Shown piece after piece: positions 15,825-15,857 of a stretch of DNA of 64,000 nt. A model generated the notes under the pieces. That model saw only the letters and a program-made list of their open reading frames with translations, was not told the origin of the DNA and ran no database searches. The stretch comes from Halobacterium noricense (lineage in GTDB: Archaea; Halobacteriota; Halobacteria; Halobacteriales; Halobacteriaceae): the NCBI RefSeq assembly GCF_021233435.1, contig NZ_CP089468.1:806001-870000 (forward strand), given 5' to 3'. The position numbers were made by a program, and so were the translations under genes. How positions within the stretch are numbered: position 1 is the stretch's first letter; every line of letters starts with the position of its first letter.

Positions 15825-15857
15825 GGATAACTAGGTGGTAATACCAGGTAATAAAAC
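15825..15857 (-). promoter_or_regulatory. thiC promoter with inverted and 10-bp-spaced direct repeats
   Basis: On the minus strand a TATA-like GTTTTATTA lies at 15849-15857, about 29 bases from the ATG. Between it and the start is the perfect inverted repeat TGGTA-A-TACCA (15836-15846). The same stretch contains two ATTACC direct repeats exactly 10 bases apart (plus-strand GGTAAT at 15837 and 15847), so they face the same side of the helix. A protein bound here would cover the transcription start. Haloarchaeal thiamine genes are thought to be controlled by a repressor (ThiR), which makes this a candidate operator; the link is inferred. Confidence 0.5.

Follow-up and report, generated by a model that had tools for sequence, protein, structure and literature searches.

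Architecture of the thiC Locus

The window, by which we mean the whole 64-kb stretch of DNA analyzed here, carries on its minus strand an open reading frame for phosphomethylpyrimidine synthase, ThiC, which matches NCBIfam NF009895 (E = 4e-206) and TIGR00190 (E = 3.1e-192) as well as Pfam PF01964. In the ORF list of the window, its ATG occupies positions 15824–15822, and the gene 5′ of it on the same strand ends at 15910, leaving an intergenic region of 85 bp. Read on the minus strand, positions 15857–15827 are GTTTTATTACCTGGTATTACCACCTAGTTAT, followed by CC and then by the ATG of thiC. This stretch contains the TATA-like element TTTTATTA, which from its position we infer to be the basal promoter of thiC. 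The distance of about 28 nt between the TATA-like element and the ATG suggests, in turn, that thiC is leaderless. The features of the promoter are collected in Table 1.

Table 1. Location of thiC and of the sequence elements in its promoter (positions within the window)
Feature	Position	Strand	Remarks
thiC, phosphomethylpyrimidine synthase, 480 aa	14382–15824	minus	NF009895, TIGR00190, PF01964
Predicted ThiR-type operator, 26-bp imperfect dyad ATTACCTGGTATTACCACCTAGTTAT	15827–15852	minus	axis between 15840 and 15839
TATA-like element TTTTATTA	15849–15856	minus	from sequence; center about −28 from the ATG; overlaps 5′ edge of operator
Palindrome TGGTA-A-TACCA	15836–15846		exact in the window; not conserved, 1/29 thiC sites
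First ATTACC	15847–15852	minus	left edge of operator; exact in 6/29 thiC sites
Second ATTACC	15837–15842	minus	variable center of operator; exact in 1/29 thiC sites

Bacterial thiC genes are usually under the control of a TPP riboswitch, a precedent that would favor control of this thiC at the RNA level as well. There is, however, no room for a leader between the TATA-like element and the ATG, and a search of window positions 14000–18000 against Rfam returned no match at E ≤ 1, in agreement with the initial annotation, which had seen no such riboswitch. On both counts a TPP riboswitch was rejected, and we give it next to no chance of controlling thiC here.

A Conserved 26-bp Dyad in Front of thiC

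A scan with the ThiC sequence of the window returned 80 loci, 28 of them from other haloarchaea, and these 28 together with the window make up a set of 29 haloarchaeal thiC promoters. All 29 align without gaps over a block of 31 columns directly 5′ of thiC. Eight columns never vary (A6, T7, A9, T15, T18, A19, A22, and T31), and three more (T5, C23, and T28) are kept in at least 90% of the sites. Most of these conserved columns are placed symmetrically, with the axis falling between columns 18 and 19 (15840/15839), so that 6 pairs with 31, 9 with 28, 15 with 22, and 18 with 19. Averaged over the ten inner pairs, complementarity is 0.552 here (axis 18.5) compared with 0.390 at axis 17, the center of the palindrome put forward in the initial annotation, and no other axis tested exceeds 0.390. 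Because of these conserved columns and their shared axis across the 29 sites, we delimit the operator as the 26 bp from 15827 to 15852, with the consensus ATTACCTAGTAATATAACCTAGTNAT and the axis on an invariant TA. So delimited, it takes in the 3′ part of the TATA-like element and stops 2 nt short of the start codon, a geometry that, in both the sequence and the thiC promoter alignment, fits an operator overlapping the basal promoter of a predicted leaderless thiC.

The dyad is also distinctive within its surroundings. When a weight matrix was built with each site left out in turn, the operator was the best place in all 29 stretches, scoring 24.9–46.8 bits against at most 16.8 bits elsewhere; for the window, the site scored 42.4 bits, with nothing else in the 64 kb above 9.0 bits. 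The pattern of invariant columns alone was not specific (73 forward matches with one mismatch versus 85 for the control) and was discarded as a query. A weak operator-like site of 17.2 bits, possibly a chance match, was seen near thiC in one of the other stretches (L033:1213–1242), where it ends at the ATG of a gene that we take to be a short-chain dehydrogenase.

The initial annotation had drawn attention instead to the palindrome TGGTA-A-TACCA and to two ATTACC direct repeats 10 bases apart, and it had placed the repeats between the TATA element and the start. The palindrome, the repeats, and their spacing are all exact in the window, and the second repeat does lie where described, whereas the first overlaps TTTTATTA (15856–15849). 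Over the 33-bp windows of the 64 kb (n = 21323) and over 20000 shuffles of the 33-mer, respectively, the frequency of a palindrome with 5-bp arms is 8.9 and 3.5%, that of a 6-mer repeated at a distance of 10 is 0.47 and 0.47%, and that of the two jointly is 0.06 and 0.01%. The palindrome alone is therefore unremarkable, but the pair is unusual, and its exactness and rarity could be taken to mean that a cooperative factor recognizes the palindrome and the phased ATTACC repeats themselves. Orthologous promoters argue otherwise: the palindrome and the doubled ATTACC are each found in just 1 of the 29, and the symmetry axis of the palindrome is 1.5 bp away from that of the conserved dyad. Genome-wide, TGGTANTACCA is exact at one place, the thiC promoter, and so is absent from the other four operators described below; allowing one mismatch gave 20 forward matches across the genome, and the reversed control gave 53. 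The palindrome itself is thus not enriched, and it was set aside as a genome-wide query. We see only a minute chance that these letters form the recognition element, and it is the 26-bp dyad that we followed through this genome and its relatives.

Recurrence at Other Thiamine Genes

A whole-genome search at E ≤ 10 with R1, a sequence-only profile built from the 29 thiC sites, reported three places. These were the thiC site (26.5 bits, E = 2.6e-5) and sites at two tenA genes, tenA1 (E = 0.003; C1:2352593) and tenA2 (E = 0.21; C2:89106). Two more sites, unreported in that search, were found by inspecting the genes concerned. One belongs to thi4-thiDN, runs into the thi4 ATG, and reaches only 11.8 bits with R1; the other belongs to the Thiamine_BP-thiB operon, in which Thiamine_BP denotes a thiamine-binding protein, and scores 19.4 bits with the weight matrix. 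The genome that holds the thiC site therefore has the operator at the starts of thi4-thiDN, tenA1, tenA2, and Thiamine_BP-thiB as well. The initial annotation had named a failure to recur upstream of other thiamine genes as the outcome that would speak against a binding site; because the site does recur at these genes, and in relatives, that objection falls away. Beside the thi4-thiDN operon lies a minus-strand frame of 272 aa that consists largely of short VEETVEKTVEETVGE-like repeats (L098:632–1450).

Within the family, 24 of 26 genomes have an R1 match at E ≤ 1, and the two without one at this threshold (G001 and G020) do have ThiR. Fourteen of the genomes contain thiC, and in every one the operator lies directly 5′ of the gene (14/14, a count that includes the window and L018, from genome G015, both of which are also among the R1 training sequences). 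At E ≤ 1, R1 marks 41 distinct places in the 26 genomes, of which 38 are at thiamine loci: 14 at thiC, 9 at thi4, 6 at Thiamine_BP, 4 at tenA, and a mixed remainder of 3 shared by a thiR-like gene and tenA, 1 at tenA with an Nramp-like gene, and 1 at an Nramp-like gene, so that the 38 include 2 places at an Nramp-like gene or its operon. The other three lie outside thiamine genes, and we take them as chance or unknown: one is between a RIO-kinase-like frame and a frame that is presumably endonuclease-IV-like (L143), one has no clear gene (L160), and one is near a weakly methyltransferase-like frame (L162). Across the class, with stricter filters and E ≤ 0.01, R1 matches in 152 of 292 genomes and in 47 of 77 genera; the 140 genomes without a match at this threshold are counted irrespective of whether they carry thiC.

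As for ThiC itself, the next best relatives kept after the 28 haloarchaeal loci are nearly all acidobacterial (60–66% identity; L045–L097 except L083), and two are from Omnitrophota (66–67% identity). This distribution may point to transfer of the gene between haloarchaea and bacteria.

ThiR as the Probable Regulator

The initial annotation had pointed to a ThiR-like repressor, and a ThiR homologue is indeed encoded in the genome (L001:1084–1986; C1:354890–355789), with an N-terminal helix-turn-helix (HTH_3, E = 7.5e-8) and a C-terminal ThiN domain (E = 2.5e-48). A criterion for telling ThiR from a catalytic ThiN, as in ThiDN, is that ThiR lacks the catalytic Met. No operator site was found in the stretches examined around this thiR gene. 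ThiN is present in all 26 family genomes, and of 31 ThiN loci checked by tblastn, 22, drawn from 22 of these genomes, show the HTH-ThiN arrangement. ThiR-like proteins were found in each of the 97 class genomes sampled.

A different thiamine-responsive factor, or a ThiR-like paralogue, ThiR2, might bind the dyad in place of ThiR. Two ThiR-like matches are present in 38 of the 97 class genomes, the second usually 37–46% identical, and three family genomes have a second ThiR-like gene arranged divergently with tenA around a single operator that both share (L138, L141, and L148, at about 1456–1554). Those three genomes belong to one genus and are ones in which thiC was not detected, and the shared operator suggests autoregulation. 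The genome studied here, however, encodes only two ThiN proteins, ThiR and ThiDN, and gives a single ThiR match. ThiR2 therefore cannot regulate in this genome, and we consider it highly improbable that a factor other than ThiR is the one that binds.

An Nramp-like Permease with the Predicted Operator at Its Start

Behind tenA2 follows a gene of the Nramp family (L212:2973–4307, on C2; PF01566, E = 9.7e-71), and in one relative (G022) the operator lies directly at the start of the Nramp-like orthologue (L147). Nramp-like proteins occur in 89 of 194 class genomes, and we assembled 90 Nramp-like loci (L219–L308 among them), with gene starts extrapolated from tblastn. In 79 of the 90, the matrix has its highest-scoring position in the entire locus between −15 and +85 bp relative to the start, compared with a mean of 18.4 and a maximum of 34 for 60 column-permuted matrices. 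Of the 90 loci, 6 include tenA and 7 include a ThiR-like gene. In three of them (L240, L241, and L242), an extra frame, which we take to be phytanoyl-CoA-dioxygenase-like, separates the Nramp-like gene from the operator, and 9 of the 90 loci contain relatives of this frame.

These promoters also bear on whether the conservation reflects only a strong basal haloarchaeal promoter, in which a TATA box and a start region are present but a specific operator is not. In favor of this, the element and the TATA box overlap, an AT-rich matrix gives high scores to AT-rich promoters, and the column-permuted matrices themselves still do best near the gene start in some of the loci. Yet the most conserved core, GT..TA..AC, is dyad-symmetric, lies downstream of the TATA box, and recurs at thiamine genes. 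It is present in 34 of the 90 Nramp-like promoters where 0.56 would be expected, whereas the rearranged motifs GT..AT..AC, TG..TA..CA, AC..TA..GT, and CA..TA..TG are absent from all 90 and another four controls turn up in 1 to 5. Similarly, the real matrix reaches at least 15 bits in 41 of the 90 promoters, against a mean of 0.1 for permuted matrices. The permuted matrices and rearranged motifs largely refute a promoter-only origin of the conservation, for which we see a very slight chance, and a specific operator remains our reading of the dyad.

The permease resembles solved metal transporters (best E values of 4e-19 to 1e-17). We take the canonical metal ligands of Nramp proteins to be the Asp and Asn of the DPGN motif in TM1 and the Met of the MPH motif in TM6. 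When the 90 copies were aligned to the metal-transporter structures, these ligands proved to be replaced: Gly stands in place of Asp in 90 of 90, Thr or Ser in place of Asn in 90 of 90, and His in place of Met in 88 of 90. The simplest reading is that the Nramp-like permease may be a transporter of thiamine or of a precursor. Whether the ThiR regulon extends across the class to a branch of Nramp/SLC11 that lacks the metal site and imports thiamine or its pyrimidine or thiazole precursors is, on these alignments and promoters, an evenly balanced question. If it does, thiamine or its precursors would be a new substrate class for the Nramp/SLC11 family. The titles and opening lines of abstracts in the literature searched state no Nramp-type thiamine uptake in prokaryotes; the 2017 papers on ThiR could list it.

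A Model for Control of thiC

Taken together, the dyad at 15827–15852 is very probably an operator at which ThiR controls thiC. The sequences themselves show that the dyad is conserved, keeps the same position, and recurs at thiamine genes, and that the genome encodes ThiR; from these observations we infer both the binding of ThiR in this species and steric exclusion as its mode. For a crenarchaeal ThiR, thiamine phosphate is reported to be the co-repressor and to favor attachment of the protein to DNA. When thiamine phosphates are plentiful, liganded ThiR would bind the 26-bp dyad and, because the dyad takes in some of the TATA element together with the start region, would block TBP/TFB or RNA polymerase. 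When thiamine phosphates run out, ThiR would let go and thiC would be transcribed. The suggestion of a plausible binding site at thiC is therefore borne out as a regulatory site that recurs, with its boundaries, axis, and recognition letters revised.

In place of a vaguely described palindrome, the thiC promoter now has a 26-bp operator with stated limits and a profile that can be put to use, and because the axis has been corrected, mutagenesis could be aimed at the appropriate bases. Searching with the profile recovers other thiamine genes and draws attention to the Nramp-like permease, a candidate transporter of vitamin B1. The thiC operator itself is ordinary for haloarchaea, a kind of site already known; it is the permease that deserves a second look.

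Comparison with Known Systems

Archaeal ThiR regulons were reportedly described by Rodionov et al. in 2017 (J Bacteriol e00743-16), with palindromic, lineage-specific motifs at genes for thiamine synthesis and transport, Halobacteria included. The sites found here are likewise palindromic and lie 5′ of thiamine genes. In Haloferax volcanii, ThiR is said to be a thiamine-dependent repressor of thiC and thi4, work credited to Hwang et al. in 2017 (J Bacteriol e00810-16). That system reportedly shares with the present one the thiC and thi4 targets, a regulator built of HTH and ThiN, and a conserved operator; its leaderless promoters would be a further likeness, and the species is a different one. 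PMC12029414 calls ThiR the central regulatory protein and has Hwang et al. 2017 among its references, and PMC10746257 has Rodionov et al. 2017 among its own. The permease, for its part, is like the divalent-metal transporters of Nramp/SLC11 in belonging to PF01566 and in its similarity to solved structures, but differs from them in that the metal-ligand positions are replaced in nearly all 90 copies and in having a ThiR-type operator at its promoter. Compared with H. volcanii, the predicted targets here extend further, to two tenA genes, the Nramp-like gene behind tenA2, and Thiamine_BP-thiB.
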